From positions 1 to 18,379 of the forward strand of contig JAMDBV010000032.1 of NCBI GenBank assembly GCA_023487965.1: 18,379 nucleotides of DNA, written 5' to 3'. The notes beneath the pieces are model-generated. The model did no database searches, was not told where the DNA came from, and saw only the letters and a list, made by a program, of their open reading frames with translations. Below, piece by piece: positions 1,903 through 17,979 of the stretch. The position numbers and the translations under genes are program-made. The DNA is from Patescibacteria group bacterium (GTDB lineage Bacteria; Patescibacteriota; Minisyncoccia; Phycocordibacterales; PALSA-1337). Position 1 is the stretch's first letter; every line of letters begins with the position of its first letter.

Positions 1903-1948
1903 CGCAATCTAAGAATATCACAAAAGTAGTTTCGGCTCACGATGCAAG

Positions 1949-1976
1949 ATAATAGATCAGAGAACTTTAGTGTCAA
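1949..1976 (-). promoter_or_regulatory. Sigma70-type promoter for ligA
   Basis: On the minus strand a perfect TTGACA (1971-1976) is followed after 16 nt by TATTAT (1949-1954). Transcription would start near 1942, giving a leader of about 40 nt before the ligA ATG. It lies in the 91-nt gap after the last minor-pilin gene, so ligA can be expressed separately from the pilus genes. Confidence 0.7.
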
Positions 1977-1993
1977 AATACTACCGTATAATA

Positions 1994-2578: not shown

Positions 2579-3126
2579 TATTTTTGATAATTCGTTAATA
2601 CTGTCTTAAGCGCAATAAAATCCTGATTGGTAGAGGAGCGATTCGTATACCATTTTGTAATTGCGGTAACGACTATTTGATTCGGGTCTTCGCTTACTTG
2701 TTGCAATGTGAAGTATCTATAATAATCAGAAAGTTTTGCGCCACCCGCGCTATATTGATATCCGTTACTGCCGAGATACAATCTGCATGGATACACTCCT
2801 CCGGACGGACAAGAAGTATTTACAACCCAGTCGTCATGATTATTGAGGTAAATGGCGCAAACAGATGAACTACAATCGCCACTTGCCGCCATTTGAAACA
2901 GATTTTTGCCAGTACTTGTATCGGTCTGCAGATTGTCTTTGAAATTATTCAGCATTTCCAATTCTTCGGCGGCAAGATTTGCGGCAATTACACGGTGTCT
3001 GGATTCCAGTGCGGCACTGTAGCCTTTGTTGGCGGCGGTAAGAGGACCAACGATCGCAATCATAAGTATACTCACAGCTACAAGTGTTTCAATAATGGTA
3101 AATGAATTTTGTAGTGTCTTTTTCAT
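2578..3126 (-). CDS. Minor pseudopilin, PilV/GspI-like
   Basis: A 182-residue prepilin-like protein. The N-terminus has a short basic leader, then S^FTIIETLVAVSILMIAIVGPL, a typical methylated helix with Glu5 present. The ETLVA pattern and length are typical of PilV/GspI-type minor pilins. The residue before the predicted cleavage site is Ser8 rather than the usual Gly, which is unusual for prepilin peptidase substrates. The C-terminal domain contains four cysteines (CSSSVC, then TSCPSGGVYPC), which could form disulfides outside the cell. Start and stop overlap its neighbours by one base on each side (TAATG), so it is co-translated with the PilW-like and PilX-like genes. The family is secure; the subclass is inferred. 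Confidence 0.82.
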   Translation of the reverse strand: MKKTLQNSFTIIETLVAVSILMIAIVGPLTAANKGYSAALESRHRVIAANLAAEELEMLNNFKDNLQTDTSTGKNLFQMAASGDCSSSVCAIYLNNHDDWVVNTSCPSGGVYPCRLYLGSNGYQYSAGGAKLSDYYRYFTLQQVSEDPNQIVVTAITKWYTNRSSTNQDFIALKTVLTNYQK

Positions 3127-3788
3127 TAGTCGGAAATGCGCTGTGAAGCGGTTGTCTCTATATCAAAATCGGTCTGATCTTTGTACAAGATAGTACCGTC
3201 GGCAGACATTGGTCCAGCATAACCGGTAAGATACATCTTGGCCATCAAATATCCGCCGTATTTGTACACGGTCATTTTTATGTCATTAATTTTGATATTA
3301 CTATCGTCTAAAATAGAATAAGGTTGCGGTTTTTTGTCGCATTGTGTTTGTTGATATTTGACCAGACTGAGAGGATTACCACCGCCTGATACGGCTCTAT
3401 AGCCATATATTAGATTGCATGAATTGCTAGGATCGCGATTGGCAGAAGTGAAATATATTGCTTTACAATTTTTGACAGTATTGTGGCTCGGGCTGTAACC
3501 GCTATTAAAAGAGAAAGAACTGGAAGAATCGTCGGAACTGTCGCAAAAATATTTTGTACCAACTCTCATTTCTCTGGTCATTGCCTCGGTGACAAAATTC
3601 ATATTATTCATGGCGGATTGCAATGCTTGGGTTCTACGATTGAGATCCGTTATCTTGACCAATGAGCCTACAGCAATAACAGCGACAACGGTAAATATTC
3701 CTAGCGAAACAAGCATCTCGAGGAGGGTGAAACCGCGTAAACCCGTTTCACATATACTGTTATTGCATTTATTACTATTTTTTTTCAT
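3126..3788 (-). CDS. Minor pseudopilin, PilW/GspJ-like
   Basis: A 220-residue prepilin with a 19-residue leader ending in LRG, followed by FTLLEMLVSLGIFTVVAVIAV, including Glu5. The FTLLEMLVSLGIF pattern and the following helix are typical of PilW/GspJ-type minor pilins, which pack into the complex that primes pilus assembly. The soluble domain carries scattered cysteines (CDSS, NCKA, SCN, QCDK) and a DSSSSFSF low-complexity turn. It lies 54 nt downstream of the large Ig-tailed pseudopilin and overlaps the next gene by one base. No Shine-Dalgarno sequence is visible before the ATG. The exact subclass is inferred from order (FimT-, PilW-, PilV-, PilX-like). Confidence 0.83.
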   Translation of the reverse strand: MKKNSNKCNNSICETGLRGFTLLEMLVSLGIFTVVAVIAVGSLVKITDLNRRTQALQSAMNNMNFVTEAMTREMRVGTKYFCDSSDDSSSSFSFNSGYSPSHNTVKNCKAIYFTSANRDPSNSCNLIYGYRAVSGGGNPLSLVKYQQTQCDKKPQPYSILDDSNIKINDIKMTVYKYGGYLMAKMYLTGYAGPMSADGTILYKDQTDFDIETTASQRISD

Positions 3789-3842
3789 TTAATGATGCGT
3801 ATTATCGGTCTGTTTTGTGACGAATCTTACAGAGTGAAATAA

Positions 3843-5504
3843 CTATGGCGCAATAACATGCTTCAACGCTGTGATTTTTACAACACCCGCACCATCTCGT
3901 CCTGTAATATATATGCCATAATCTCCACCACTAACAAGAGAATTGTTATCTAAACAGAACAGGTCAGAACCAGAAGTAAATGGGCCCGAAATACTTCCCG
4001 TTACTGGTTCATACCATCCGTATGGAGTATATACCCTAATAAGAACTGACTGTATATCGGAACTTGCCGTAAAATTGAACGTTTGTGTGGAATATCCAAA
4101 ATTACAAAACAGTGGAGTACTAGTATAATTGATTGTAATATTTGAACCCGGTGATGACGTTTGAGTCATCGGGTCTACGGTAACTGATTTGGAACTTATG
4201 ACACCATTCGGATCCTTGCACTCAATGTCGAACTGGACTGGATTATCCCACACGCCAACTTTTGACATCACTGTACCGTTCATAAGTCGATTGTCTGTAA
4301 TCTCAAATTTATTATTATCGAGAGACCTGCATTCATAGCCGAATGTATAATTTGGAATACCTGTGTTCCACGTCAAACTTGGCTTCTGACCTGGATAAGT
4401 CACTGGGTCATAATCGGCGCTAAAGGTTAAATTGATCGCTGGACTTGGTCCGGTTCCTATGTTTGAATATGTGGCCGTATTTTGTTGCAGATCTCCACCC
4501 GCATTTGTACTACAGACCAAGTTGTACACGAAACTCCCGCCCATTTGCACGCATGGACTTGCGGACCCTCCGTTTCCGGTAGATGTAACGGATGAACACG
4601 AGCCAACACCACCAATACCACTAGCAGTGCATGTTGAGTAAAGATTCGTGCTCCACTGCAAACTGGGATTACTTCCATAGTCAACGAAATCATTGTTGTC
4701 GATCTGAGTCCAATTACCACCAACAGAACCATATAGGCTTGTATTAATCGTCAAAGTTCCGGAACTTTGCGTAGGTGGTGGCGCATACGTAGACAATACA
4801 GACAATTGTCCGTTGCTGGTCAAGTTTACCGCGTTCTGCTCATCATTATTTGGCGCACGGGATGATAAATATATTCTTGCTCCTGTATAGCTTGATGGTA
4901 CATCACTTGCTACAATAGCATCCGGATTTGGACGAATAAACGTAATGTTTAACCATTTGATCTTATTCCAGTATGGTGCTGCCAATATACTGCAATCCTC
5001 TTTAGTTTGTTGTGTCGACCAGCTATCACCTGCGAGAACGCCACAGAATGAATAAATCTGAGCCGAATTCTTCAACGTATAGGCTTTGACAAACTCTGGC
5101 CCAGCCATACATTCCACAATTGTCGTTGCCGGATTGCCAGATGTGTTATCACACGCATGATTACTTTTTCCGTCATTATCAAATTTATCAGCAAATAAGA
5201 CAAACGTACCAGTATTGGTATGTGTGGCATCATAAGCCGTACTAAAATACAAACCATAACCGGTACTAAACTGTTTATATGAATATTGCTTCACCCCAAT
5301 CCCATACGTCTGCGCTTCTTTCACCGCCAAAGCTACGTCATATGCCGCATTGGTCAACAAAGTCCCGGAATTGAAACTGTTGTATCTAGCCAATATGAGA
5401 GCGGTCATAAATACGAAAATAGCAATCGTTACCAACAATTCAATCAAAGTGAATCCTTTCCTTACACCGTTCTTTCCTGTTATGTTAGTGGTTCCGATCT
5501 TCAT
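3843..5504 (-). CDS. Large FimT/GspH-like pseudopilin with C-terminal Ig-like modules
   Basis: A 553-residue protein. After a 17-residue leader it has G^FTLIELLVTIAIFVFMTALIL with Glu5. A FimT/GspH-type head follows (residues about 40-238; the AAYDVALAVKEAQTYG helix is characteristic). FimT/GspH proteins are normally 150-200 residues, so the rest is an extension: a proline linker (APPPTQ, 241-246) and then about three beta-rich modules (247-350, 352-446, 450-553). The first two share the pattern SLxWxT...C...Y/FxxxC found in Ig-like repeats of Patescibacterial surface proteins. Paired cysteines suggest disulfides. It follows a PilA-like pilin after only 4 nt and precedes the other minor pilins, so it is probably displayed on the pilus, perhaps as a tip adhesin. 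That role is inference. Confidence 0.85.
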   Translation of the reverse strand: MKIGTTNITGKNGVRKGFTLIELLVTIAIFVFMTALILARYNSFNSGTLLTNAAYDVALAVKEAQTYGIGVKQYSYKQFSTGYGLYFSTAYDATHTNTGTFVLFADKFDNDGKSNHACDNTSGNPATTIVECMAGPEFVKAYTLKNSAQIYSFCGVLAGDSWSTQQTKEDCSILAAPYWNKIKWLNITFIRPNPDAIVASDVPSSYTGARIYLSSRAPNNDEQNAVNLTSNGQLSVLSTYAPPPTQSSGTLTINTSLYGSVGGNWTQIDNNDFVDYGSNPSLQWSTNLYSTCTASGIGGVGSCSSVTSTGNGGSASPCVQMGGSFVYNLVCSTNAGGDLQQNTATYSNIGTGPSPAINLTFSADYDPVTYPGQKPSLTWNTGIPNYTFGYECRSLDNNKFEITDNRLMNGTVMSKVGVWDNPVQFDIECKDPNGVISSKSVTVDPMTQTSSPGSNITINYTSTPLFCNFGYSTQTFNFTASSDIQSVLIRVYTPYGWYEPVTGSISGPFTSGSDLFCLDNNSLVSGGDYGIYITGRDGAGVVKITALKHVIAP

Positions 5505-5508
5505 TCAT

Positions 5509-6012
5509 TTATTTTGGGCCGATACAATAGTCAAAATTGGCAATACCAGTCTTGCAACTGGTTACATTCCAAGCAGTGGATGATCCATCGGAATCCCAAT
5601 CGGTATTCGACGAAAATGTCAGACTATCCGTCATGGCTGATTCCGTAGTCTCAAATTTTGTATGCAATACATAATCCAACTTATCAGATTTATGGTACGC
5701 ATAATCATACGTACCGCTCGGTGGCGTCGGTATCTTTGATATAAAATTCCCCAGTGCCACTGTATTATTCAATCCACACGTAGCGCCAGTGCTACCGAGA
5801 ACAATACTAGTCGGATATTGGTGACATCTCTCAAAAAAATTTTCGAGGGCCAATTGTATCTGCGCCAGGTCGGATATTCTTTTGGCATCACGCGACTTGG
5901 CGCGTGAAGTAGACAAACTTGCCAGAACGACACTGGTCAAAATACCGATAATCGCTATAACTACGAGCAATTCAATGAGTGTAAAGCCCGTTTGGGCGGC
6001 TTTTTTATTCAT
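5509..6012 (-). CDS. Type IV pilin, PilA-like
   Basis: A 167-residue prepilin: leader MNKKAAQTG, cleavage before FTLIELLVVIAIIGIL, Glu5 present. The helix continues into STSRAKSRDAKRISDLAQIQLALENFF, the usual pilin alpha1-C segment, and then CHQYPTS, common in small pilins of this lineage. Cysteines at CHQYP, ATCG, TSCK and DYCIG could form a C-terminal disulfide loop. It lies 118 nt after the prepilin peptidase gene with a TATAAT between them, and 4 nt before the Ig-tailed pseudopilin. It may be a major subunit or an abundant minor one; the sequence alone does not say which of the three PilA-like genes here forms the fibre. Confidence 0.88.
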   Translation of the reverse strand: MNKKAAQTGFTLIELLVVIAIIGILTSVVLASLSTSRAKSRDAKRISDLAQIQLALENFFERCHQYPTSIVLGSTGATCGLNNTVALGNFISKIPTPPSGTYDYAYHKSDKLDYVLHTKFETTESAMTDSLTFSSNTDWDSDGSSTAWNVTSCKTGIANFDYCIGPK

Positions 6013-6070
6013 GGTCTAATTGTAACATATCAACATGCGAAGATACCGTGATTGTGGATAAACAATCAGG

Positions 6071-6076
6071 ATTATA
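6071..6076 (-). promoter_or_regulatory. Possible -10 element for the minor-pilin operon
   Basis: A perfect TATAAT on the minus strand sits about 60 nt upstream of the pilin at 6012, within the only sizeable gap (118 nt) in the pilus block. No good -35 hexamer is seen at 16-18 nt and no TG extension is present, so it is a weak candidate. It would allow the five-gene pilin cluster to be transcribed apart from pilD. Confidence 0.35.
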
Positions 6077-6130
6077 GTTACTTTCACCTTCGTCTATTGG
6101 ACGAGTCTTATAGTCGCAATCTTTGGTATA

Positions 6131-6934
6131 TCACAAATACAGTCCGATCATATCGCGAACAAGCCCGACATCGAGCACTTGAACACCGAATATTATAACA
6201 ATATACATTCCCAGAATGAGATACGTGCCGAAAGGTATTTCGGTATTGCGTTTGAATTTGCCATAAGTTATGAGAAGCCAGGCGACGCTAAATATCGCAC
6301 CGATCCAAAATGACAGTATGAGTGCGTTGACGCCGGCGTTTATTCCGGTCAACCAACCGATGCCAAGCATGAGCTTGGCGTCACCGAGACCCATCCATTT
6401 GCCGCGTGATACTAGCCATATCAGAGCCAACGGCATAGCCAGTATCGGGCCGGAGAGAATACTTTCCCAAGTCGGTATATGCCACAACGTGTCACCACCA
6501 AGAAAGAGCGTAGCGAGAGCGATCACACCAAATGTCACTGCGAGCGCGTCGGGTATGATCTTGTGCTTCATGTCGTGAATAGTTATGACCAGAAGTACAG
6601 ACGCCGCCAATATTTGCAGTACGGTCACGATACCGGCGGACAATGTAATCGGCGGAAACTTGATGAATATGAGTGCAAATATCACACCGGCCATGAATTC
6701 GATGATCGGATATTGCCAGGATATTTTGCTCTTGCATTTCCGACACGCGCCGCGCAAAAAGACGAAGCTCAGTATCGGTATCAATTCCATCCATTCAAGC
6801 TTCTTGCCACAAGACATACACGTCGATCTGCCACCGATACCACGACCGGTTTTGTATCGCAATGCTACGACATTCAGGAAACTTCCGATTATCGTACCAA
6901 AGACGAAATAAAGGAGGGGTACGAGTATGTCCAT
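6131..6934 (-). CDS. pilD: Prepilin peptidase PilD (A24 family, bifunctional type)
   Basis: A membrane aspartyl protease that removes prepilin leaders and N-methylates the new N-terminus. The 267 residues match full-length PilD/GspO. The N-terminal segment FGTIIGSFLNVVALR is diagnostic. Two CxxC pairs follow (Cys39/Cys42 and Cys64/Cys67), as in bifunctional peptidases, then about seven hydrophobic segments. The catalytic aspartates sit in HDMKHKIIPD (Asp121) and MGLGDAKLMLG (Asp185). It starts 4 nt after the stop of the pilin at 6939-7538, so the two are probably co-transcribed. Its substrates would be the pilins on either side. There is no visible ribosome-binding site. Identification is very secure. 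Confidence 0.97.
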   Translation of the reverse strand: MDILVPLLYFVFGTIIGSFLNVVALRYKTGRGIGGRSTCMSCGKKLEWMELIPILSFVFLRGACRKCKSKISWQYPIIEFMAGVIFALIFIKFPPITLSAGIVTVLQILAASVLLVITIHDMKHKIIPDALAVTFGVIALATLFLGGDTLWHIPTWESILSGPILAMPLALIWLVSRGKWMGLGDAKLMLGIGWLTGINAGVNALILSFWIGAIFSVAWLLITYGKFKRNTEIPFGTYLILGMYIVIIFGVQVLDVGLVRDMIGLYL

Positions 6935-6938
6935 TATT

Positions 6939-7538
6939 TTACTTGCAGATTACACGGTTGTTACTATCCAGAGGAACACTGCTTATTGGCAAAGAGACAC
7001 CTGTTCCGCTTGTGACGTTGTTGCCGTTTGAATCAATGCAATCGTAGCCCATGGTTGTCGTGGCATATATGGCGTAATCCGTGACGGGGTTACCGGCCGT
7101 AGCGCTGGTGAAGATGATAAGGCCTGTGTCCAAATACGACGAGTCACTCAGGTTTTCCCCTATCGTAGCATCAGATGTTGTCGCAAACAGATCGTTATTG
7201 GTTCCGGAAAAATCAGTAAGAGCCGCATGACCATTCATGTTACCCACATCGTTTACGAGAGTATACAATCCGGACGCACCTTCGCCTGAAGAGTTTATGT
7301 TTGCAATGTTATCAGTACTGCCCACAACAAGATCGGAATATGTACCATCGGAATTCGCTTCAAGCTGATTGCGCATCTGAGCGAGGTCAGTCTTGATCCT
7401 TACGTCGGTCGCCTTGGAACGAGCACTTCCCAAACTTACTAGCACGACAGATGCGAGTATGCCTATGATAGCTATAACCACCAGGAGTTCGATCAATGTA
7501 AAGCCGCGACCCGAGATATATTTTGCAGTTTTTTTCAT
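6939..7538 (-). CDS. Type IV pilin, PilA-like, first gene of pilD operon
   Basis: A 199-residue prepilin with an 11-residue basic leader ending in GRG, followed by FTLIELLVVIAIIGILASVV and LGSARSKATDVRIKTDLAQMRNQLE. Glu5 is present. The body is rich in Asn, Ser and Thr, as in small surface pilins, and has cysteines only near the C-terminus (YDCIDSN and the penultimate Cys), suggesting one C-terminal disulfide loop. The N-terminal helix is almost identical in protein sequence to the pilins at 5509 and 16733, but the DNA differs at many synonymous sites, so these are old paralogs rather than recent copies. Promoter-like elements lie just upstream. Confidence 0.88.
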   Translation of the reverse strand: MKKTAKYISGRGFTLIELLVVIAIIGILASVVLVSLGSARSKATDVRIKTDLAQMRNQLEANSDGTYSDLVVGSTDNIANINSSGEGASGLYTLVNDVGNMNGHAALTDFSGTNNDLFATTSDATIGENLSDSSYLDTGLIIFTSATAGNPVTDYAIYATTTMGYDCIDSNGNNVTSGTGVSLPISSVPLDSNNRVICK

Positions 7539-7566
7539 ATTATTTACTTATTCGGACTATTGTTAT

Positions 7567-7596
7567 GTCATAAATGTAACACGCCGTCACGGTCAA
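7567..7596 (-). promoter_or_regulatory. Putative promoter of the pilin-pilD operon
   Basis: On the minus strand TTGACC (7591-7596) is followed after 18 nt by TATGAC (7567-7572). It lies in the 64-nt gap between the GT2 stop and the pilin start, giving a leader of about 20 nt. The -10 match is only 4 of 6. Confidence 0.4.
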
Positions 7597-7602
7597 GCAA
7601 AA

Positions 7603-8385
7603 TTACTTATCCACATTTACGTGCTTGCGTAAATGAGTCTTGTGGAAATACCTGAGTATACTTTTTGTATGATTTAGAAATCTGGCTCGGAACAGTTTCG
7701 ATGAGGTTCGCGCATATTCATGATTTACAATTATATTCGGCATATATATCGATCGGCCACCATGTTCTTTCAAGCGAAAAAACAAATCTGCATCCTCATA
7801 CCCATAGAAATAACCTTCATCAAATAGACCAATATGATTAAATATGTTTCTTCTGAATATTAAACATGCTCCTATTGCCCAATCAATATTTTCCCTGTCG
7901 TCGTCCGCGTCAATAATATAAGAAGTGTTTAAACTGGAATTTGGAAATAACCGATAAAGACCGAGTACCCTGTATACCAGATTTCTGATCCGAGGAAATT
8001 TCCTTACTGATTCTTGAATTCTACCGTCCGGATATAATATTTTTGGCACCAACACGTGCACACCACCATTCTGAGCAAAAAGACTTACAACATCATCGAG
8101 CTTTATTGTCTCAATCCACGCATCGTCATCGATTATCATACAGATTTTCTCATTGGAGACGCTTATACCAATATTTCTAGCTGCTGATACGCCAGTGTTA
8201 TAATCTTTACGTATTACAGTAACGTTATCAAGACTTTTCAGGTACTCTGGCGTCCCGTCATTGGAGCCGTTATCGATAACGATTAGTTCAGAGTTAGGTA
8301 AATGTCTCATAAGAGAGTCGATACAACGCTTCAGCTTGTCTTTTCTATTCCTTGTTACCACAACGACCGATATAGTTTGACCCAT
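7603..8385 (-). CDS. GT2 family glycosyltransferase (rhamnosyltransferase-like)
   Basis: A 260-residue cytoplasmic GT-A fold enzyme that would transfer a nucleotide-activated sugar to a growing glycan. The N-terminus ISVVVVTRNRKDKLKRCIDSL and DNGSND (38-43) form the nucleotide-binding part. The metal-binding aspartates are at DDD (86-88). The acceptor-side motif GACLIFRR followed by GLFDEGYFYGYEDADLFFR (Glu197-Asp198) is typical of WbbL-type rhamnosyltransferases and relatives. There is no transmembrane segment. It is divergent from the wzm operon with only 34 nt between start codons and shares its promoter region, so it probably acts on the same glycan. The sugar specificity cannot be read from the sequence. 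Confidence 0.93.
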   Translation of the reverse strand: MGQTISVVVVTRNRKDKLKRCIDSLMRHLPNSELIVIDNGSNDGTPEYLKSLDNVTVIRKDYNTGVSAARNIGISVSNEKICMIIDDDAWIETIKLDDVVSLFAQNGGVHVLVPKILYPDGRIQESVRKFPRIRNLVYRVLGLYRLFPNSSLNTSYIIDADDDRENIDWAIGACLIFRRNIFNHIGLFDEGYFYGYEDADLFFRLKEHGGRSIYMPNIIVNHEYARTSSKLFRARFLNHTKSILRYFHKTHLRKHVNVDK

Positions 8386-8405
8386 ATTATTCTGGATTAT
8401 ATCAT
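8377..8405 (+). promoter_or_regulatory. Sigma70-type promoter of the glycan operon
   Basis: TTGACC (8377-8382), a 17-nt spacer, then TATCAT (8400-8405): five of six matches in each box. Transcription would start near 8412, leaving a leader of about 8 nt before the ATG at 8420. The -35 lies inside the first codons of the divergent GT2 gene. Confidence 0.6.
8396..8404 (-). promoter_or_regulatory. Extended -10 promoter of the divergent GT2 gene
   Basis: Minus-strand TGATATAAT matches the extended -10 consensus TGnTATAAT perfectly; no -35 is needed or seen. Ten bases separate it from the ATG, so the transcript would be leaderless or nearly so. It overlaps the -10 of the opposing promoter at 8400-8405. 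Confidence 0.55.
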
Positions 8406-8419
8406 TACCTTACCGCTAT

Positions 8420-9253
8420 ATGTTACACAATAGCAATAAAACATTCACTATCGAACCTCTTGAAAACAGAAGTGTGTTTGATTCAATTGTTAATCTGTAT
8501 CAATATAGGGAATTATTGCTTACTCTTGCATGGCGCGACTATAAAGTAAAATACCGCCAAACGTTTGTCGGTATAGCATGGGCAATATTCCAGCCACTTC
8601 TTGCAATGTTCGCCTTCGTCTTTATATTCGGCAGGATCGCAGGGATTTCACCACAAGGCATTCCGTATGCTCTGTATGTCTATTCCGGAATGGTTATATG
8701 GCAATTCTTCTCAAGCGCCATATCGGAAGCAAGCATGTCATTGCGAGAAAGCAGTCAGATGATAACGAAAATATATTTTCCGAGAATAGTCATACCGGTT
8801 GCAAAGGTCATGACACTCTGTATTGATCTGTTTTTCTCACTATCGGTCCTAGCCATATTGATGCTCTATTACGGACATATCCCATCAGTCCTGGGTATCG
8901 TTACAATTATCCCGACGCTGATCGTATTGTTTGTAATATCGACAAGCATCGGCTCGATACTGTCCGCAATAAACGTAAAGTACAGAGATGTTCAATATAT
9001 TTTGCCCTACTTTGTACAACTGGGTCTTTTCTTGAGCCCTGTGATATATTCCGGGACAAATCTGGGTGCTTATCGCAATCTCTTATTCCTGAATCCGGCT
9101 ACCGGCATAATAGATATGTTCAGATATTCCCTATTTGGTTCCAGTTTTCCTACTGTGTCATTTGCGATTTCATGCATGATTGCGATAGTATTGTGGCTAT
9201 TCGGATCGTATTATTTTGCCAAAGCTGAGGGGGAATTCTCGGATGTAATATAA
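8420..9253 (+). CDS. wzm: ABC-2 type polysaccharide export permease (Wzm/TagG-like)
   Basis: Membrane subunit of a glycan exporter that moves undecaprenyl-linked polysaccharide across the cytoplasmic membrane. The 277 residues are typical for Wzm/RfbD/TagG. After a cytoplasmic N-terminus the motif ELLLTLAWRDYKVKYRQTFVG and GIAWAIFQPLLAMFAFVFIF is diagnostic, followed by about six hydrophobic segments. The conserved INVKYRDVQYILPYFVQLG and LFLNPATGIIDMFRYSLFG come later. Its ATPase partner is the Wzt at 9651, but the usual adjacency is broken by an ORF6N gene. The ATG follows a promoter by only a few bases and has no Shine-Dalgarno sequence. The general role is secure; the exported polymer is unknown, and a classical lipid A-linked LPS is not expected in Patescibacteria. 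Confidence 0.94.
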   Translation: MLHNSNKTFTIEPLENRSVFDSIVNLYQYRELLLTLAWRDYKVKYRQTFVGIAWAIFQPLLAMFAFVFIFGRIAGISPQGIPYALYVYSGMVIWQFFSSAISEASMSLRESSQMITKIYFPRIVIPVAKVMTLCIDLFFSLSVLAILMLYYGHIPSVLGIVTIIPTLIVLFVISTSIGSILSAINVKYRDVQYILPYFVQLGLFLSPVIYSGTNLGAYRNLLFLNPATGIIDMFRYSLFGSSFPTVSFAISCMIAIVLWLFGSYYFAKAEGEFSDVI

Positions 9254-9257
9254 AATA

Positions 9258-9285
9258 TTGGCGTCTATATATTTTGTGGTAACAT
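9258..9285 (+). promoter_or_regulatory. Weak promoter candidate before the ORF6N gene
   Basis: TTGGCG (9258-9263), a 16-nt spacer, then TAACAT (9280-9285), four of six matches each. The predicted start would fall at about the ATG at 9292, so the mRNA could be leaderless. The match is weak and could be chance. Confidence 0.25.
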
Positions 9286-9291
9286 AACGCT

Positions 9292-9654
9292 ATGAATTCG
9301 ATAGAATCAGTTACAATATCGGCGGACCATGTTGCCAGCAAGATATTCCTTATCCGTGGTAAAAAAGTGATGTTTGACCGCGATCTGGCGGAATTGTATG
9401 GCGTTCAAACAAAGGTATTAAATCAGGCAGTCAAGAGGAACATCGACAGGTTCCCTGACGATTTTATGTTTGTTCTTAGTAAGGATGAAGCCGATATGTG
9501 GCAAGATCGAGTTTTAAGGTCACAATCCGTGACCTTAAAACGCGGTAAACACCTCAAATATCGACCATATGTTTTTACGGAACAAGGCGTGTTCAAATAT
9601 TTAACCAGAGAAAAAGCAAAATCAAAGGGGCATTTTGGGTATATAAAACCATGA
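9292..9654 (+). CDS. Truncated ORF6N-domain DNA-binding protein
   Basis: A 120-residue protein. Residues 1-95 are a clear ORF6N domain, a phage-antirepressor-associated DNA-binding module common in Patescibacteria: [22 protein letters not shown], then [17 protein letters not shown] and, after a variable stretch, [10 protein letters not shown]. In intact relatives FTEQGV leads into AMLSSVL and another 40-100 or more residues. Here the similarity stops right after FTEQGV and a short unrelated tail ([15 protein letters not shown]...) ends in a TGA overlapping the wzt start. So it looks like an ORF6N fragment that landed between wzm and wzt, or a minimal domain kept as a regulator. Codons 74-84 contain a perfect 13-bp inverted repeat. 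DNA-binding is known for the family; a role in glycan regulation would be speculation. Confidence 0.8.
9511..9541. repeat. Perfect 13-bp inverted repeat with 5-nt loop inside ORF6N gene
   Basis: GTTTTAAGGTCAC (9511-9523), loop AATCC, then GTGACCTTAAAAC (9529-9541): all 13 pairs match. It encodes [10 protein letters not shown], which still fits the ORF6N family. There is no T run on either side, so it is not a standard terminator. It could be an operator, an RNA hairpin, or the foot of a mobile element. Confidence 0.9.
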
Positions 9655-10889
9655 CGAAAATGATCGAAATAGAAAACTTGAGCAAGAAATACCCGATCCG
9701 CCATTCAACGGCGCGTTACGGAACATTGCGAGACGATATGATGCAATTCATCAGACATCCATTTGCCAAAAGGACGAAAAAGGAAGAATTCTGGGCTCTG
9801 AAAGACATAAATCTGACGATAAACAAAGGTGATGTTGTCGGCATCATCGGCCGGAATGGCGCCGGGAAATCGACACTGCTCAAGATTATTTCTGGCATAA
9901 CCAAGCCAACAACAGGAAGGGTGAAATTGTACGGCAGGACTTCTTCCCTCCTTGAAGTAGGTACTGGGTTTCACCCGGAATTGACAGGCAGAGAAAACAT
10001 CTTTTTGAACGGAGTCATTCTCGGCATGTCCAGAAAAGAAGTGGAGAAGAAATTTGATGAGATAGTCGCCTTTTCGGGAGTTGAAAAATTCCTAGACACT
10101 CCTGTTAAACATTATTCAAGCGGTATGTACGTCAGACTCGCCTTCGCTGTCGCCGCCCATCTCGAGCCGGATATTCTGATCGTGGACGAGGTCCTCGCCG
10201 TCGGCGATGCCGAGTTTCAGAAAAAATGTCTCGGCAAGATGGATGAAGTGGCAAAGAAAGAAGGTAGGACAGTGCTGTTTGTGAGTCATAATATGGGAGC
10301 AATTGAACAATTATGTCCGGTTAGTATTTTAATTACTAGCGGCTTATGTACACCTATTAGCAACACAAGAAGCATTTTGGATGATTATATCGGGAGTAGA
10401 ACACAAAATACTACAGAATGGTTCGATAATAACAGACCGAGAGATACTGATGTGTATTTCAATCACGCGATGATCAAACACAAGAATTGTTCATTAAATA
10501 GTAGCGTGTTTTCTACAGACGATGAGATATATGTTGAGTTGGGTTATGAAATCTTGAGGCCTCTGGCCAATATGCAGATCGGATTAAGACTCCAGAGGGA
10601 CACAACGGTGGTCTTTGAATCAGGAGATGTGCGACTTCCTGAAGAAATGGAAAAAATTAGGCATAATGGGAGATATCGGAGTGTATGCACTATTCCGAGT
10701 AACTTACTAAATTCTGGGATATATTCGATAACCATATTTGCTCATATTCCTAATGTAACTGAAATAACTCATCATGAAAATATTTTAACATTCAACATAT
10801 CGATAAAATATCCATGGTCTGGCACGTTCACTCAACCAGGTATTATTCGACCGAATTTGAGGTGGCAGATTTTACCTGAATTAATATGA
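9651..10889 (+). CDS. wzt: ABC polysaccharide exporter ATPase with carbohydrate-binding domain (Wzt-like)
   Basis: Energises export through the Wzm permease. Residues 1-250 form the nucleotide-binding domain: Walker [10 protein letters not shown] (67-75), signature [12 protein letters not shown] (from 155), Walker B ILIVDE (175-180), and H-loop His213 in VSHNM. The early insert [20 protein letters not shown] is typical of Wzt/TagH. Residues about 255-412 are a beta-rich Wzt C-terminal domain, which in known systems binds the finished non-reducing end of the glycan. Length 412 fits CBD-bearing Wzt. The first ATG (9651) overlaps the ORF6N stop; Met4 (9660) is an alternative start. DNA composition changes abruptly near 10310, from GC-rich to AT-rich, right at the domain junction, which suggests the specificity half was exchanged. 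The gene ends in an ATGA overlap with the next. Confidence 0.94.
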
Positions 10890-12073
10890 ATATTCTATCT
10901 ATAAATACCCACTACATGGGCGGCGGGGCCGAAGCTGTAATGAGAATGATTACCGACGGTCTTAAAAAAAGAGGTCATGAAATATCGATATTTACGGGAG
11001 ATGCGGTTTATGTCAATGAAAATGTGTCGCCTATAGATCTTTCTGTATTTAGAAGAAAATTGAGTATCAAAATATCGAATGATATCGACATATCTCAATC
11101 CGATAAGATCATGCTGACACCAGAGTTTAAGCGTGCAGATGTAATCCATTGCCATAATCTACATGGATGGTACTTCAACTTAAACACCCTTAGAAAAATG
11201 TCACTTATCAAACCAGTTATATGGACACTACATGATATGTGGGCTATTACTCCGCATTGCGCTCATACATCAAATTATAAGAGTTCGAATGGATTCTTTG
11301 AATGTTCGGACCGTAGTATATATCCAGGCACTTATTGGCCAAACGCCAAGTATCTCTGTTACAGAAAGGAATACATATACAAAAGGTCAAAATTCACGTT
11401 AGTGGTGCCATCACAGTGGCTTAAGAATCTGGTAAATCAAAGTGTCTTAGCTGATAAACCTATAGAACTTATAAGTAATGGCATTGATACATCGATTTTC
11501 AAGGTAACTGACAAAGTATCCGCGAGACAACTACTCGGCATACCACTGGACAAAAAGGTCATATTATTCGTAGCAAATGGCGGTAAGAATAATATGTTCA
11601 AAGGTTGGCAATACGCCAATAGTGTACTTTCGAAATTTGCCGATAATAAAAATATCTTGGGCATCTGTGTAGGTGGAGAAGAAAATATCATCACGGAAAA
11701 TATGTACTACGTAAGCAAAGTTAATTCTCAACACAAATTAGCTCTATATTATTCGTCATGCGACGTACTCCTTTTCACATCGATATCAGAAAATATGCCG
11801 CTTGTAGTGTTAGAGGCGTCAAGTTGTGGCGTTCCGGTAGTAAGTTTCGATGTTGGTGGTGTCAGAGAAATTATAGATTATACGGGTAATGGATATTTGG
11901 CGAGACACAAATCCGTTGAAGATCTATACCAAGGGGTAAAACATTTCTTATCAATGTCGGAAGATACAAGAAAAGTCGTCGGTAAGAATTCAGCAAACAA
12001 AGTATCACAGATATTTGGAGTTGATACGATGGTTGAAAAATACATTTCGTTATATGTGAATTTAATTTCATGA
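10886..12073 (+). CDS. GT4 family glycosyltransferase
   Basis: A 395-residue GT-B fold transferase. The N-terminus ILSINTHYMGGGAEAVMRMITDGLKKRGHE is the acceptor-side glycine-rich loop. WTLHDMWAITPHCAH (113-127) is shared with colanic-acid-type and other EPS GT4 enzymes. The donor-binding EX7E pair is Glu302/Glu310 in SENMPLVVLEASSCGVPVV, followed by DVGGVREII. It is cytoplasmic with no membrane segment. The gene starts by ATGA overlap with wzt and ends by ATGA overlap with the next GT2, so all are translationally coupled. The sugar is unknown; retention of anomeric configuration is a family property. The AT-rich composition matches its downstream neighbours, not the wzt N-terminal half. Confidence 0.93.
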   Translation: MNILSINTHYMGGGAEAVMRMITDGLKKRGHEISIFTGDAVYVNENVSPIDLSVFRRKLSIKISNDIDISQSDKIMLTPEFKRADVIHCHNLHGWYFNLNTLRKMSLIKPVIWTLHDMWAITPHCAHTSNYKSSNGFFECSDRSIYPGTYWPNAKYLCYRKEYIYKRSKFTLVVPSQWLKNLVNQSVLADKPIELISNGIDTSIFKVTDKVSARQLLGIPLDKKVILFVANGGKNNMFKGWQYANSVLSKFADNKNILGICVGGEENIITENMYYVSKVNSQHKLALYYSSCDVLLFTSISENMPLVVLEASSCGVPVVSFDVGGVREIIDYTGNGYLARHKSVEDLYQGVKHFLSMSEDTRKVVGKNSANKVSQIFGVDTMVEKYISLYVNLIS

Positions 12074-12909
12074 AATTCTCGATCATAACTTGCACAAAAA
12101 ATAGCGAGAGGTATATTAGAGAAAATATACTGTCGGTGGAAACACAGACATTCACAGACTACGAACATATATTCATCGACGGCCATTCCACAGATAGAAC
12201 GAAAGAGATAATCAACGAGTACATGAGAAGATATTCTGGGCGAGTCAAATTGTTTGAATATGAACCAAAGGGTATAGCCAATGCGATGAATATGGGAATA
12301 AAGCACGCAACTGGCGACTATATCACATTTTTACATTCCGACGACAGATTTTTTGATGCCACCGTGCTTAATGATGTCAACGATTTCCTTGATAGAAAAG
12401 AATTAGATTGGATATATGGAAAGGAGGTCAGAATGTATGAATCTGGAGAGATTCAAGCATTAACGACCGACAGTAAATACCTTCAGTATTCGAGCTCGGA
12501 TCTACTCGGTAAATATTTACTGAAATATTTTCTATTTATAAAACACCAGAGTGTCTTTACAAACGAGTCTGTATTTAAAAGGTACGGTTGTTTCAATGAG
12601 GGTCTTCAGTGCGCCATGGACTACGATTTCTTTCTAAGGATCATTTCACAAACAAAGTGGTCGTTCTTCAACAGAATAATCGACAAGTTCACTGTTCATG
12701 AGAACAATAGATCACTAGCATCAAGATACGGAACAGTAAATGCAATTGAGACTCTTTTACTGAGAGAGAGGCATATGAACAAAATCGAAAAAAAAATAGC
12801 TTTTGTCTTTGAAATTATGCTTGCATTAAGAAATGACGTCAGACATCTAACGAAGATAAGAAAGCTTACCAAAACACAAAAGATGCATAATTTCGTAAAA
12901 CAGCAATGA
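12070..12909 (+). CDS. GT2 family glycosyltransferase (WcaA-like)
   Basis: A 279-residue GT-A fold enzyme. KFSIITCTKNSERYIRENILSVETQTFTDYEHIFIDGHSTDRT gives the nucleotide-binding core, with DGHSTD at 37-42. The metal-binding aspartates are in LHSDD (88-92, Asp91/Asp92). GIANAMNMGIKHATGDY is a strongly conserved GT2 helix. The acceptor-side region QCAMDYDFFLRI (from 180) holds the probable catalytic base region. The C-terminus (residues 240-279) is basic and may contact the membrane. It overlaps its neighbours by ATGA on both sides. This subgroup is common in O-antigen and EPS clusters; donor and linkage cannot be read. Confidence 0.93.
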   Translation: MKFSIITCTKNSERYIRENILSVETQTFTDYEHIFIDGHSTDRTKEIINEYMRRYSGRVKLFEYEPKGIANAMNMGIKHATGDYITFLHSDDRFFDATVLNDVNDFLDRKELDWIYGKEVRMYESGEIQALTTDSKYLQYSSSDLLGKYLLKYFLFIKHQSVFTNESVFKRYGCFNEGLQCAMDYDFFLRIISQTKWSFFNRIIDKFTVHENNRSLASRYGTVNAIETLLLRERHMNKIEKKIAFVFEIMLALRNDVRHLTKIRKLTKTQKMHNFVKQQ

Positions 12910-13859
12910 ATATCACAAACGTCATACTTTCATCAGACGAAAAATATGCACAGCACCTCGGGGTAACAATTTGCTCGTTGATGGAAAATAACCGTAACCA
13001 ATATTTTGATATATATATTATTGATGGCGGCATGAGTGAAAATACCAAATCCAATCTTTCCCTCCTAAAGGGACGTTACGGATTTGGATTAGTATATTTA
13101 CAGCCTGATCCATCATTATTCAAGAACGCTTATTTGAGCGACTATTTGACAGAGGCGGCATATTACAGGATCTTATTGGGAGATTTACTACCGCCGAATA
13201 TTACTAATGTACTTTATCTAGACAGCGACATGATTATCATGTCAGATATTAGTGAGCTGTTCACCACCCAATTCGACGAAAATATTATATGCGCAATCAG
13301 CGACCCAGGGATTGTCAATTTTAGACACCTTTCAATATCTGAGAAAAAGAACTATTTCAATTCTGGCTTTTTATATGTAGATTTGAAAAAGTGGAGAGAT
13401 GAAGATATTGGGCATAAATGTATAGATTTTATAAATACCAACCGGGAAAAGATAATACTTCACGATCAGGATGTGTTAAATTACGTATTGAATGGCAGAT
13501 GGAAGCACATAACACCAAGTTTCAATGTCATGACGCATTTCTACGATGGTCTAGGGGATGATGTATTTACTCCGAAGGAAATCTCAAGGGCTATACAAGA
13601 CCCATTAATTCTTCATTTTAATACAGCAGTGAAGCCGTGGCACAGACTCTGTAATCATCCACGCAAACGTGACTATAAAAGATATTTGGCAATGACACCG
13701 TGGTATAACTACAAGGCACCCATGCCAACATTAGCTGAATTTATAAAATTTTACTATTATTCACTGTTCTCGCAAGACACCAGAATAAAGATTCGGAAGA
13801 GAATCTTGGAGCCACTTGGTTTTAAGAAGCGCTGCACAAAAGATTATGAACTCAAATAG
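12906..13859 (+). CDS. GT8 family glycosyltransferase (LgtC/WaaJ-like)
   Basis: A 317-residue retaining GT-A enzyme, the family of LgtC galactosyltransferases and WaaJ/RfaJ glucosyltransferases. Seen in order: NVILSSDEKYAQHLGVTICSL, AAYYRILLGDLLP, the DXD metal site NVLYLDSDMI (Asp106-Ser-Asp108), FNSGFLYVDLKKWR (from 151), LHDQDVLNYVLNGRWKHITPSFNV, and HFNTAVKPWH (237-246), which replaces the usual HYxGxxKPW. The tail (residues about 285-317) is basic and hydrophobic, as in membrane-associated GT8 enzymes. It is coupled to the preceding GT2 by ATGA and overlaps the next gene. It probably adds Glc or Gal, which is a family-based inference only. Confidence 0.94.
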   Translation: MNITNVILSSDEKYAQHLGVTICSLMENNRNQYFDIYIIDGGMSENTKSNLSLLKGRYGFGLVYLQPDPSLFKNAYLSDYLTEAAYYRILLGDLLPPNITNVLYLDSDMIIMSDISELFTTQFDENIICAISDPGIVNFRHLSISEKKNYFNSGFLYVDLKKWRDEDIGHKCIDFINTNREKIILHDQDVLNYVLNGRWKHITPSFNVMTHFYDGLGDDVFTPKEISRAIQDPLILHFNTAVKPWHRLCNHPRKRDYKRYLAMTPWYNYKAPMPTLAEFIKFYYYSLFSQDTRIKIRKRILEPLGFKKRCTKDYELK

Positions 13860-15150
13860 ATTCAGATTGATGATATTCGATATATCGTGCTTGGTAACGG
13901 CAATATTGGTGTCAGTTCTAATTAGAGAATCCGCGATAGTCATATCGTCATTTGGTCAAATATCGGTTAAACCTATCATCTTTACTGCGTACACAGCGAT
14001 TATGTTTGTATTTTTGCTCATAATATTTGGACTATTTAGACTATATAGACCGATTAGACTCCAACTGTCTGCTCGCCTATTCACCATCATAAAAGCGATC
14101 GGTCTTTGGGCACTTGTTGTGTGCACAATAATATACATTGCTAAATACGATTTTCCTCGAAGCATTTTATTCATGACAGTAATCATTACCGCCATGTTGA
14201 TATGCATCTGCAGATATTTGATCTACAGAATTTTTGTCCACAAATCTTTTCAACACGATTACAGGGTACACATTATAGGACCAGACACTCGTGCGGAGAG
14301 GTTGCTATGTGAATTGAGATCCAGATTTCCGAAAATCACATCGGTAAATCACGTAAGTACTGATAGAATCCGAGATAAACTAATACCAGATTCTCAAGCT
14401 GAAATCTTCCTTGTTGGTGACGTATTCGATTGGAGTGAAATTATAGACGTATTAATCGCTGATCGGGAGAACCGACACGGTTTCCGACTCATTAACCACA
14501 TCTTCGGTCAAACAAATAGAGAGATACGACTGAGTGAAATCGATGAGACAGCACGTCTTGTGTCGTCCGTTGGCGATAATCCAATAAACTCGTTTATCAG
14601 AAGGTGCTTGGACATAGGCATGTCTTTATCTGCAATTCTTTTATGCATACCGATATTGGCCTTGCTGGCATTCATTGTCAAAATCTATTCATCTGGAACA
14701 ATCTATATTAAACAGGAACGAATAGGTAAGAATGGAAAAAGGTTCACAATGTACAAATTCCGCACGATGCGTAGCGACACTCCCTTATACGAAATGGCGC
14801 CGAGTAATGGTAATGATCCGCGAATCACTCGTATAGGTCGCATCCTCCGACGCTTCAGCCTAGATGAGCTCCCCCAACTGTGGAATGTCCTAAAAGGCGA
14901 TATGAGCATAGTCGGACCAAGGCCTGAAATGGAATTCATAGTCAAAAATTACAAGCCGTGGCAAAGATATCGTTTGCGTGTCAAACCGGGGCTTACGGGA
15001 CTATGGCAGATCATGGGGCGCAAGGATTTGCCACTCCATGAGAACTTGGAGTATGATTTCTTCTATGTCGCTACGCAAAATATTGTTACTGATATTTCGA
15101 TAATATTAAAGACAATACCCGCGGTAATATTTGGCAAGGGCGCTTATTAA
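13846..15150 (+). CDS. Polyprenyl-phosphate sugar-phosphate transferase (WbaP/WcaJ-type initiating enzyme)
   Basis: A membrane enzyme that starts glycan synthesis by moving a sugar-1-phosphate from a nucleotide sugar onto undecaprenyl phosphate. The 434 residues have four N-terminal hydrophobic segments, a short Rossmann-like domain (HIIGPDTRAERLLCEL onward), a re-entrant helix (near ILLCIPILALLAFIVKI) and the conserved catalytic domain: KFRTMRSD (from 304), SLDELPQLWNVLKGDMSIVGPRP (338-360, with the catalytic Asp-Glu), and VKPGLTGLWQI (from 379). I chose the ATG at 13846, which overlaps the GT8 stop by 14 nt. An in-frame TTG at 13816 would add ten residues but runs deeper into the GT8 gene. 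In the operon it sits after the GTs that it primes. Confidence 0.94.
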   Translation: MNSNRFRLMIFDISCLVTAILVSVLIRESAIVISSFGQISVKPIIFTAYTAIMFVFLLIIFGLFRLYRPIRLQLSARLFTIIKAIGLWALVVCTIIYIAKYDFPRSILFMTVIITAMLICICRYLIYRIFVHKSFQHDYRVHIIGPDTRAERLLCELRSRFPKITSVNHVSTDRIRDKLIPDSQAEIFLVGDVFDWSEIIDVLIADRENRHGFRLINHIFGQTNREIRLSEIDETARLVSSVGDNPINSFIRRCLDIGMSLSAILLCIPILALLAFIVKIYSSGTIYIKQERIGKNGKRFTMYKFRTMRSDTPLYEMAPSNGNDPRITRIGRILRRFSLDELPQLWNVLKGDMSIVGPRPEMEFIVKNYKPWQRYRLRVKPGLTGLWQIMGRKDLPLHENLEYDFFYVATQNIVTDISIILKTIPAVIFGKGAY

Positions 15151-15171
15151 TAGATATCTTTCAAATAATTC

Positions 15172-16680
15172 ATGAGTACATACATAGACTCTGCCCGATT
15201 GCGTGCAAGACTGCCCGAAATAATATTGTGGTTTATCGTTACGGTTCCGGTATTTTTTTCAGGTTATTTCCTGAACAATACAGTACAGCCATTATGCGCC
15301 GTCGCTATAACACTCGGTTGGTTTCTCCTCATTAGAGATGGCAAATCGATAGTATTCGATAGATTAACGAAAATGCTGGGGATCATTGCATTGCTCTCCG
15401 TAATTTTTTTACCGTTATCGACATACGTATTCGGCTCTCTTTCTGGTACATTATGGTGGATTATAATCTTTGCCACCTTCGCGTATACAAGAGTCGTTAT
15501 CGATTCTAGCGATAAACTCAATAGTCTCGCCAAAGCAGTTGTTATCGGTGCTGCATTTGTAGCCATTCATGCGACTTACTTCTTCATCGTCATCGGTCTA
15601 ACTTCATATCCGCGTCTCAATTCCCTTTTTGGCTTGCACAATGTATACGGCGGATATTTGATTATTCCTTTATTCTTGAGTCTTTACCTATTCATTTCCT
15701 CCAAGAATAGTAGGGCAAAAGCGTTGTGGGCCAGCATATCAATATTGTTATTCTCAAATCTAATCCTAACCTTCTCAAGAGGCACATGGCTATCGATAAT
15801 TCTCGCAATTTTAATAATAGGCATTTTGACCAAGAATGACTTGGCGACGCGTTTGAAGGGTAAAGTAAAAAACTTAATAATAGGGATTGTCGCTGTCATC
15901 GCTCTTGGAAGTATTCTTTCGGTCGCGATATGGTTTGCCGCAAAGGCAAATACCGATACGACAGTAAATCAGGCAATACCCAATAGCTCCTACATATTTA
16001 GTGGTGAGACTGCCGAAAATAATGCATTTACAGACAGACTTATGTATTGGAAAGATGCCACAATTGTCGTTTCGCAATCGCCACTATTTGGAGTCGGTAT
16101 CGGAAATTATGGTGACGCGATTCATAAATATACACCGGATACGAAATACTTCGCATCTGATCCGCACAATTTCTATGTGAAGATATTTGCCGAACAAGGT
16201 GTCATCATTGGTCTCCTATTCGTGATTATGATAATTACCGTTGTCTATCGTATGACCATCGCTGTCCGCGCAAATAAAGCAAATTCCCTTCAGATTATTC
16301 TCTGGACGGCAATCCTCACTTCGCTGATACACATAGGGATGGAAGTTGATTGGAATTCGCCGATAATAGCGATTATATTATTTGCATTCGTCGGTAGTCT
16401 CATATCAATCACCAAAGATGGTCATAACAAAACAGCAAGATCGTTAAAGTCTTTGCAACCAATAATAGCATCTATCCTTATACTGATGTCTCTATTATCT
16501 CTATGGATATTCCTGGCCGAAAGTGCGAAAAGAGATGGTGAATTCCTCATGGAAAAAGGAAAATATAGTGAGGCACTGAGTGCGTTCAACAGGTCGGTAC
16601 ATATAAATCCGTTTGATCGCAAAACCATTGATGACAAGGTAATTGCGGAATTTACACTAATTCTTAAGGATAAGAGATAA
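15172..16680 (+). CDS. O-antigen ligase/polymerase family membrane protein with TPR-like tail
   Basis: A 502-residue polytopic membrane protein (about 11-12 hydrophobic segments) of the Wzy_C superfamily, which includes WaaL O-antigen ligases, Wzy polymerases and PglL/PilO protein O-glycosylases. Diagnostic parts are FSRGTWLS (Arg203), an outer loop with DRLMYWKDA (Arg289), GVGIGNYG, and DPHNFYVKIFAEQGVIIGLLF with the catalytic-type His332. A short TPR-like helix pair, EKGKYSEALSAFNRSVHINPFDRK, is at residues 460-484. In Wzm/Wzt pathways no separate polymerase is required, so this is more likely a ligase that puts the exported glycan on a lipid, wall polymer or protein. Being next to pilin genes makes pilin glycosylation worth considering. 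It starts 21 nt after the initiating transferase and ends at a terminator. Confidence 0.88.
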   Translation: MSTYIDSARLRARLPEIILWFIVTVPVFFSGYFLNNTVQPLCAVAITLGWFLLIRDGKSIVFDRLTKMLGIIALLSVIFLPLSTYVFGSLSGTLWWIIIFATFAYTRVVIDSSDKLNSLAKAVVIGAAFVAIHATYFFIVIGLTSYPRLNSLFGLHNVYGGYLIIPLFLSLYLFISSKNSRAKALWASISILLFSNLILTFSRGTWLSIILAILIIGILTKNDLATRLKGKVKNLIIGIVAVIALGSILSVAIWFAAKANTDTTVNQAIPNSSYIFSGETAENNAFTDRLMYWKDATIVVSQSPLFGVGIGNYGDAIHKYTPDTKYFASDPHNFYVKIFAEQGVIIGLLFVIMIITVVYRMTIAVRANKANSLQIILWTAILTSLIHIGMEVDWNSPIIAIILFAFVGSLISITKDGHNKTARSLKSLQPIIASILILMSLLSLWIFLAESAKRDGEFLMEKGKYSEALSAFNRSVHINPFDRKTIDDKVIAEFTLILKDKR

Positions 16681-16682
16681 AT

Positions 16683-16715
16683 ACAAAAACACCGCTGAGA
16701 TGCGGTGTTTTTTGT
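16683..16715. terminator. Bidirectional rho-independent terminator
   Basis: AAAAACACCGC (16685-16695), loop TGAGAT, GCGGTGTTTTT (16702-16712): an 11-bp perfect stem flanked by A and T runs. It ends the glycan operon 3 nt after its stop and also serves the convergent pilin gene ending at 16733. Confidence 0.9.
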
Positions 16716-16732
16716 CTCACGCAAATGAATAC

Positions 16733-17152: not shown

Positions 17153-17195
17153 ACTTTTTAATATGATTTATTAATAATCGACTAATAATTCACTC

Positions 17196-17220
17196 AACAG
17201 ACCTTGAATATAAGGTTGTT
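17196..17220 (-). ncRNA. 5'-terminal stem-loop in the pilin mRNA leader
   Basis: AACA plus ACCTT (17196-17205, one bulged G at 17200) pairs with AAGGT plus TGTT (17212-17220) around a 6-nt loop, forming a nine-pair stem. With transcription starting near 17222 the hairpin would lie at the extreme 5' end of the transcript, where such structures commonly stabilise bacterial mRNAs. The function is inferred. Confidence 0.45.
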
Positions 17221-17228
17221 CACGCTTA

Positions 17229-17892: not shown

Positions 17893-17979
17893 CTAAAGAT
17901 ACATGTCAATCGTATCACATGGAGCATAGCTGTCAATGACCTATAAAGTCAACCCGATAAGGGAAATTAGTGCGTGGCA

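Follow-up and report, generated by a model that had tools for sequence, protein, structure and literature searches.

A palindrome inside ORF6N genes covaries with the recognition helix of the encoded protein and is probably an intragenic operator

The ORF6N gene of the window and its palindrome

The DNA analysed here, referred to as the window, is a stretch of 18,379 nucleotides from a Patescibacteria group bacterium (GenBank assembly GCA_023487965.1, contig JAMDBV010000032.1, positions 1 to 18,379, forward strand). A short ORF6N gene lies within it, between a wzm-like and a wzt-like gene, and contains a palindrome. The features of the locus are as follows.

8420 to 9253, plus strand: ABC-2 permease gene (wzm-like), upstream; PF01061, E 6.5e-15.
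9292 to 9654, plus strand: ORF6N gene of 120 codons; PF10543, E 3.4e-31; shorter than its relative P0002 by 57 residues of the long C-terminal helix.
9409 to 9441, plus strand: recognition-helix codons (11 residues, 40-50), with specificity residue Q45 at 9424-9426; residues 40-49 are predicted to be helical in an AlphaFold model of P0002, which is near-identical; residue 6 of the helix motif holds the most information on the site.
9511 to 9541, plus strand: proposed intragenic operator (palindrome; 10 residues encoded) in codons 74-84; exact 13-bp arms; homologous palindrome in 279 of 291 ORF6N domains.
9518 to 9525, plus strand: left half-site GGTCACAA; specificity bases CA at 9521-9522; half-site form TTTAAGGTCACAA; code Q-CA.
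9527 to 9534, minus-strand reading: right half-site GGTCACGG; specificity bases CA at 9531-9530; half-site form TTTAAGGTCACGG.
9651 to 10889, plus strand: ABC ATPase gene (wzt-like), downstream; PF00005, E 2.5e-24; overlaps the ORF6N stop by 4 nt.

The window protein belongs to the ORF6N family by its match to PF10543 (107.8 bits against a curated cut-off of 27.8), while the Wzt_C profile matches the downstream ATPase only below its cut-off. Over its first 100 residues the protein is 99% identical to P0002, a full-length relative that matches PHROG anti-repressor families. At window positions 9592-9654, just after FTEQGV, 57 residues comprising most of the long C-terminal helix of P0002 are absent in frame, and the last 20 residues match P0002 again with two changes. 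The window copy may not be active because of this loss.

Positions 9511-9541 read GTTTTAAGGTCAC AATCC GTGACCTTAAAAC, with 13 of 13 arm pairs matched around a 5-nt spacer; the perfect inverted repeat that the first-pass annotation placed in codons 74-84 is thereby confirmed. The arms can be stretched to 16 nt at 94% pairing (9508-9544), and the palindrome is the longest perfect separate-arm inverted repeat among the matches listed in the window (the 25 longest of 31 pairs). It is a two-fold symmetric site within a coding region, as an intragenic autoregulatory operator would be. The annotation had also judged such a stem unlikely by chance, and this holds: by hand calculation, about 18,379 x 6 / 4^13 = 0.002 perfect 13-bp stems with a spacer of 3-8 nt are expected in random sequence, and when the peptide was recoded synonymously, only 3 of 5000 draws came up to the palindrome score of the window. 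Its further statement that the repeat is not a usual terminator agrees with the count of terminator-like sites (a GC-rich stem with a T run) in 9100-9800, which is zero. The wzm-like gene holds a 24-nt palindrome of its own at 8551-8574 (overlapping arms, 94%).

Conservation of the palindrome across the ORF6N family

ORF6N domains were gathered from the phylum of the window (17 of 286 genomes positive), from species contigs (80 kept of 539 relatives, one of them titled as an archaeon) and 29 of their genomes, from Bacteroidia (130 of 295 genomes positive; 30 loci and 60 further regions), from plasmids (4 loci among 21 matching records; 3 matching phage records were left out) and from viral contigs (3 and 58 loci). 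These loci are mostly best-scoring protein matches, not a random sample; the profile was built from matches that include the palindrome-coded peptide, and very odd members may be missed.

In the stretch bounded by the conserved motifs F-M-F and FTEQG, a palindrome scoring at least 7 is present in all but 12 of the 291 distinct ORF6N domains (279). This is the opposite of what the first-pass annotation had named as grounds for doubt, namely homologs without the palindrome. The number of palindromes was one in 257 domains, two in 18, three in 3 and four in 1, and their spacing was variable in the 22 domains with at least two. Viral contigs are no exception, with a palindrome in 55 of 59 domains. 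When each gene was recoded synonymously with its own codon use, 4.7% of the recodings reached a score of 7, compared with 95.9% of the natural genes; at a score of at least 10 the figures were 0.34% and 71.8% (209 of 291). As negative controls, the N-terminal part of the ORF6N domains gave 0 of 281 at a score of at least 10 and 11 of 281 at 7 or above, and 99-nt windows of other genes at the same loci gave 32 and 251, respectively, of 6291.

In 13 of 272 domains the palindrome is read in another frame, where it encodes unrelated peptides such as ELVTNCDRF; 12 of these 13 follow the helix code described below. Retention of the palindrome in another frame indicates that the conserved entity is the DNA and not the peptide.

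Covariation of the recognition helix with the half-sites

Within the motif T-K-x-L-N-X-A-V-K-R-N, residue 6 covaries with two bases that lie 4-5 positions from the centre of the palindrome. Counted by half-site, Q goes with CA (250 of 262), E with CG (160 of 162), K with TC (32 of 34) and R with GC (57 of 76). The mutual information between this residue and the site is 1.55 bits, where the maximum of 2000 shuffles was 0.17; the columns that come next are motif residue 3 (1.39) and two palindrome-coded columns (1.23 and 0.83), and all others are at or below 0.37. The code table draws on 272 of the 291 domains, the 19 dropped being the 12 without a palindrome and 7 without an aligned helix. The code gets at least one half-site right in 256 of 267 domains and both in 243, and the simple code is broken in the other 11. 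Two of these exceptions, both from locus L016, combine R at motif residue 3 with Q at residue 6 and have the site TTGC, and motif residue 3 may therefore matter to the site as well.

With 120 domains as the training set (the window and loci up to L161), the held-out domains were predicted with both halves correct in 142 of 147 and with one half or both correct in 145; a baseline that always guesses CA had both halves correct in 66 of 152. The window gene itself fits, with VLNQAV in the helix and GGTCAC in the site. In the second ORF6N gene of its genome (L020:994-1251, minus strand, contig C41) an in-frame TAA precedes the helix, and a perfect palindrome (TTTTTTGATATCGCAAATTGCGATATCAAAAAA) is kept all the same; the helix RLNEQV and site ATATCGC of this gene, which are outside the 272 code domains, fit by direct reading.

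Relatedness of the domains was addressed in three ways. At every level of identity outside the helix and site, site bases are shared by 79-96% of pairs with the same residue and by 0-6% of pairs with different residues. On a FastTree tree built from 50 columns, with helix and site excluded, at least 110 changes are counted for the residue and 111 for the site. Among supported independent pairs, E against the rest gave 9:0 (median p 0.004), Q against E gave 7:0 (median p 0.016), and Q against the rest gave about 8:0, plus two pairs that did not differ; the K class, with 2 supported pairs, and the R class, with 6 (on average 3.4 in agreement and 2.6 without a site difference), are too small for a test. 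As far as these sequences can tell, the code is not explained by relatedness. Judged by covariation, and by that only, the specificity of the site matches the protein of the same gene, the mark by which an operator would be recognised. In this respect, the proposal of the first-pass annotation that the palindrome may be an operator to which the ORF6N protein itself binds has strong support, the recognition helix predicting the palindrome across the family.

A proposed intragenic operator

An AlphaFold model of P0002, made with a 99-sequence alignment (pLDDT 79.5; a single-sequence run reached only 40), predicts helices at residues 29-36 and 40-49 that form a helix-turn-helix by eye, the second of which bears the code. 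The palindrome-coded residues 74-84 are modelled without secondary structure, as a low-confidence loop (block pLDDT 58 and 55). Searches of the PDB gave no relatives by sequence, the two formin coiled-coil matches having E values of 0.35 and 0.64, and no fold matches at E 0.001 or better, the best being Ski/Dachshund domains at E 0.095. The specificity bases of the two half-sites are about 9 bp apart across the palindrome centre, close to the one-turn spacing of the recognition helices in helix-turn-helix dimers.

These observations leave us in little doubt that the palindrome is the ORF6N protein's own binding site. The best overall reading, to which we give a probability of about 0.8, is that of an intragenic operator, a binding site for the protein encoded by the same gene. 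We propose that an ORF6N dimer sets its two recognition helices on the half-sites GGTCAC/GTGACC, physical binding being suggested by the covariation. The site would be placed where the gene encodes a low-confidence loop of variable length, beyond the helix-turn-helix, so that base changes would cost the protein little. The bound dimer would act as a roadblock to transcription through the gene and so repress it, giving negative feedback that is independent of the promoter. Such feedback, working under any host promoter, would be fitting for a single mobile gene like that of the window, set between wzm-like and wzt-like genes. Sequence evidence speaks for the dimer-binding operator; the roadblock and the promoter-independent feedback are what we infer from it. 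Provided that the palindrome is the protein's own site, autorepression is rather likely to be its main use. Promoter-like sites at the window ORF6N gene number 3, compared with 2.4 in shuffles, that is, none above chance, so that a roadblock here would presumably also affect the downstream ATPase gene.

Some ORF6N genes have extra copies of the palindrome beside the in-gene site. At least 43 upstream and 19 downstream palindromes with a score of at least 10 are listed near ORF6N genes (L094 and L137 being one place), and 16 of the 43 and 5 of the 19 have the same 4-base core as the in-gene site, against 27.9% of random gene pairs. The clearest case is L321, with three upstream palindromes like its in-gene site. 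Since the core of several other flanking palindromes differs from the gene's own, we take these sites as mild support only for autoregulation. Five loci (L321, L323, L371, L268 and L347) have one to three extra upstream palindromes with their own in-gene core, as promoter operators would show.

Alternative explanations

The protein may instead bind its own gene for other ends, such as marking or pairing gene copies that are to be transferred or recombined, shutting off copies that arrive from outside, or helping domains to be exchanged in a family given to shuffling. We regard this as possible, if unlikely. It gains from where the site occurs: the commonest form, AGGTCRCAAWTTGYGACCT, is found exactly at 31 places in 20 of 29 genomes (a reversed-pattern control gave 0), and lies mainly in the gene itself, with 24 of the 31 inside ORF6N domains. 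Five of the other seven are within 0.7 kb of such a domain, and of the last two one is in a KilA-N-like reading frame and one near a DUF1016 gene. The same reading would accommodate the presence of ORF6N genes on plasmids and viral contigs, the two related plasmids that differ by a neighbouring block, and the 22 of 291 genes with at least two palindromes. Against it, the extra upstream sites of some genes resemble ordinary operators, and mutual silencing in particular is not favoured, as the 4-base core is the same in 6 of 25 tandem pairs, with no clear difference from the 27.9% of random pairs; mutual exclusion of tandem copies was rejected as a candidate on this count.

The two plasmids, L254 and L255 from Bacteroides uniformis, have the same annotated neighbourhood and ORF6N protein, and one is without the adjacent Fic-to-RhuM block (the gene tables being incomplete); it looks as if single genes come and go. 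An ORF6N-type palindrome (AATGGAGGTCACAAATTGTGACCTCCATT) lies near the end of a KilA-N-like reading frame at L158:664-692.

It is improbable that the palindrome works as an mRNA stem-loop, bound by the protein or another factor, that controls translation, stability or a downstream gene. The predicted RNA fold is strong (-23.2 kcal/mol, z -7.7) and the arms covary among homologs, as a stem would require; the kinds of mismatch, however, do not suit RNA. Among 2720 arm pairs the 138 mismatches comprise 41 A.C, 30 A.A, 22 G.T and 45 others, so that pairing is not kept up through wobble pairs; an RNA stem would favour G.T, and the lack of such an excess speaks for duplex DNA. In the class with K at residue 5, A.A is frequent (GGACGC paired with GGTCGC), which would break an RNA stem but fits a half-site in which one base is degenerate. 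No Rfam family matched window positions 9000-10000 at E up to 1. The more specific suggestion of the first-pass annotation, an RNA structure that lowers wzt expression, fares no better given the absence of a wobble preference and the occurrence of the palindrome in ORF6N genes of other neighbourhoods.

We consider it very improbable that the palindrome is a selfish element, like REP or Rickettsia palindromic elements, which inserts in frame into ORF6N genes. In 22 of 291 domains the palindromes are multiple and variably spaced, and these do look like added copies. The element occupies one homologous place, however, its sequence is tied to the helix of the host gene and changes with it, and 24 of 31 exact copies lie inside ORF6N domains, which tells against the small palindromic element spreading through ORF6N genes that had been proposed at first reading. 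The further copies of the 31-nt element that the same annotation suggested looking for are absent, at up to 3 mismatches, from the window and from the 506,721-base draft genome of the source (74% complete), so that one copy is found in its own genome and not a dispersal beyond one gene family. As to a link to Y1/RAYT transposases, Y1 genes were present in 16 of 20 genomes, and by eye the hairpins of the 30 Y1 loci in this set had no core in common with the ORF6N palindromes. Four loci from Patescibacteria-type genomes (L173, L183, L187 and L190) have long hairpins repeated around or inside Y1-transposase-like frames, for example GTAGAGACGC..., which occurs three times in L187; such an arrangement would be expected of REP/RAYT systems.

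A chance origin, or a symmetry that follows from the codons of the peptide LRSQxVTLK, is a negligible prospect: the peptide permits a palindrome, and recodings reach the low threshold at the rate given above, but hardly any reach the score of 10 attained by most natural genes, and palindromes are retained with quite different peptides and in another frame.

In-gene palindromes in other mobile regulator families

RhuM genes (loci L192-L221 and L404-L433) likewise contain palindromes, which occupy a conserved position and follow a helix-to-site code specific to these genes. At a score of 7, 57 of 64 domains have one, against 12.9% of recodings, and at a score of 10 the figures are 28 of 64 and 0.8%. 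Two helix residues before the H of IxxH covary with the half-site, in parallel with the ORF6N code. In the 50 of 64 domains that score at least 8, SE and NE go with TTCGG (NE with variants), SR with TTGCA, SK and NK with TTTCC, TK with GTTCC or GTGCA, TI with GTAAG, NI and NM with TTAAG, SL with TCAAG, and NY with TTCGA.

The nuclease genes with a DUF1016_N domain (L222-L251 and L464-L492) have the palindrome immediately ahead of the SWTH motif: it is present in 50 of 57 domains, against 3.8% of recodings, and in 19 of 57 against 0.2% at a score of 10; helix residues 48, 51 and 52 give some information on the site in this small sample. Bro-N (L434-L463), intended as a negative control, proved positive, with palindromes in 26 of 28 domains, taken from 30 loci, against 17.9% (13 of 28 against 1.7% at a score of 10), and in one subclass the palindrome sequence seems to follow the residues before YW. 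For KilA-N (L499-L528) the count is 27 of 30 against 20.3% of recodings, and 23 of 30 against 3.7% at a score of 10. The KilA-N palindromes are built around an invariant CGAATTCG core, the half-sites having CGAA next to the centre with each base in at least 50 of 52. Outside the palindrome-coded stretch, information on the KilA-N site peaks at residues 47, 48, 50 and 51 of TIIQNWLRNRN (26 domains), a segment taken to be a helix.

The Bro-N gene dinD of E. coli K-12 has a 32-nt palindrome at nt 174-205 of the gene (L493:7934-7965), with 14 of 16 arm pairs matched and in a position homologous to other Bro-N sites. Two of six dinD alleles have it (K-12 and AR_0015); in BLR(DE3) and three further alleles, all of the 86-87% identity class, it is degenerate and below threshold (best 4.5). 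Taken with these four examined alleles, the 2732 of 4668 matching E. coli records in which dinD is 80-90% identical to that of K-12 suggest that the palindrome may be missing from many strains.

It seems likely that ORF6N, RhuM, KilA-N and Bro-N, with DUF1016_N as a probable further member, are 'self-addressed genes', which would each hold their own cognate operator within a protein-tolerant stretch of the DNA-binding-domain coding sequence. Site and helix would co-evolve, regulation would move with the gene under any promoter, and the palindrome would reveal the DNA target of the protein.

Comparison with known systems

If the intragenic operator reading is right, the DNA target of many uncharacterised antirepressor-type proteins could be read from the gene sequence, a residue-to-base code could be learned from natural data alone, and the feedback control kept by a single mobile gene in any operon would be explained; the dinD palindrome of E. 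coli K-12 makes the idea testable in a laboratory strain. To our knowledge, no self-site has been described before that is shared by a whole family, lies within the protein's own coding sequence and co-evolves with the recognition helix. Our literature search found nothing that links the ORF6N, RhuM, KilA-N and Bro-N families with in-gene palindromes, and an earlier description in subscription journals or preprints is possible. Among the papers found for ORF6N, one lists a phage genome and another owes its match to a coincidence of text in the name of a Klebsiella enzyme; those found for RhuM, among the matches listed, mostly dealt with other subjects. The accessible portions of PMC11231755, PMC6591296, PMC4862756 and PMC5448814 make no such link; in the portion of PMC4862756 (2016), little is said to be known of the structure, recognition sequence or function of KilA-N outside the fungal SBF/APSES subfamily.

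The window protein, through PF10543, and P0002, through its PHROG matches, resemble the phage antirepressor-type proteins. Domain shuffling among these proteins (ORF6N, KilA-N and Bro-N) was reportedly described by Iyer and colleagues in 2002. The accessible text of PMC4862756 cites Iyer et al. 2002; the published accounts found, as far as their available parts go, are without a self-site inside these genes.

Palindromic DNA maintained within protein-coding sequence is also known from the Rickettsia palindromic elements, which are dispersed insertions. It is likewise a feature of PARCEL elements, which are described in the available part of PMC2996958 as tandem 25-residue repeats of surface-type proteins. 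The ORF6N palindrome is like both in this respect; a match to the binding specificity of the encoding protein is not reported for either in the available parts of the accounts found.

The fungal SBF/APSES proteins are homologs of KilA-N. According to the accessible parts of the sources, SBF binds CGCGAA (PMC4862756) and the SBF/APSES site is CRCGAAA (PMC5448814). The in-gene half-sites of bacterial KilA-N keep CGAA, similar to CGCGAA; the fungal sites, however, lie in promoters of target genes, and the bacterial ones in the regulator's own coding sequence. The ORF6N half-sites (GGTCAC and variants) differ from the fungal sites.

Intragenic operators with roadblock repression are known from lacZ O2 and from the internal operator of galE, and in these, as in ORF6N genes, the repressor site lies within transcribed coding sequence. 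In lacZ and galE the regulator binds, within a single operon, the coding sequence of a gene that it controls, whereas the ORF6N site is embedded in the codons for the DNA-binding domain of the regulator itself. There it keeps a homologous position in different phyla and appears to co-evolve with the helix that would read it.
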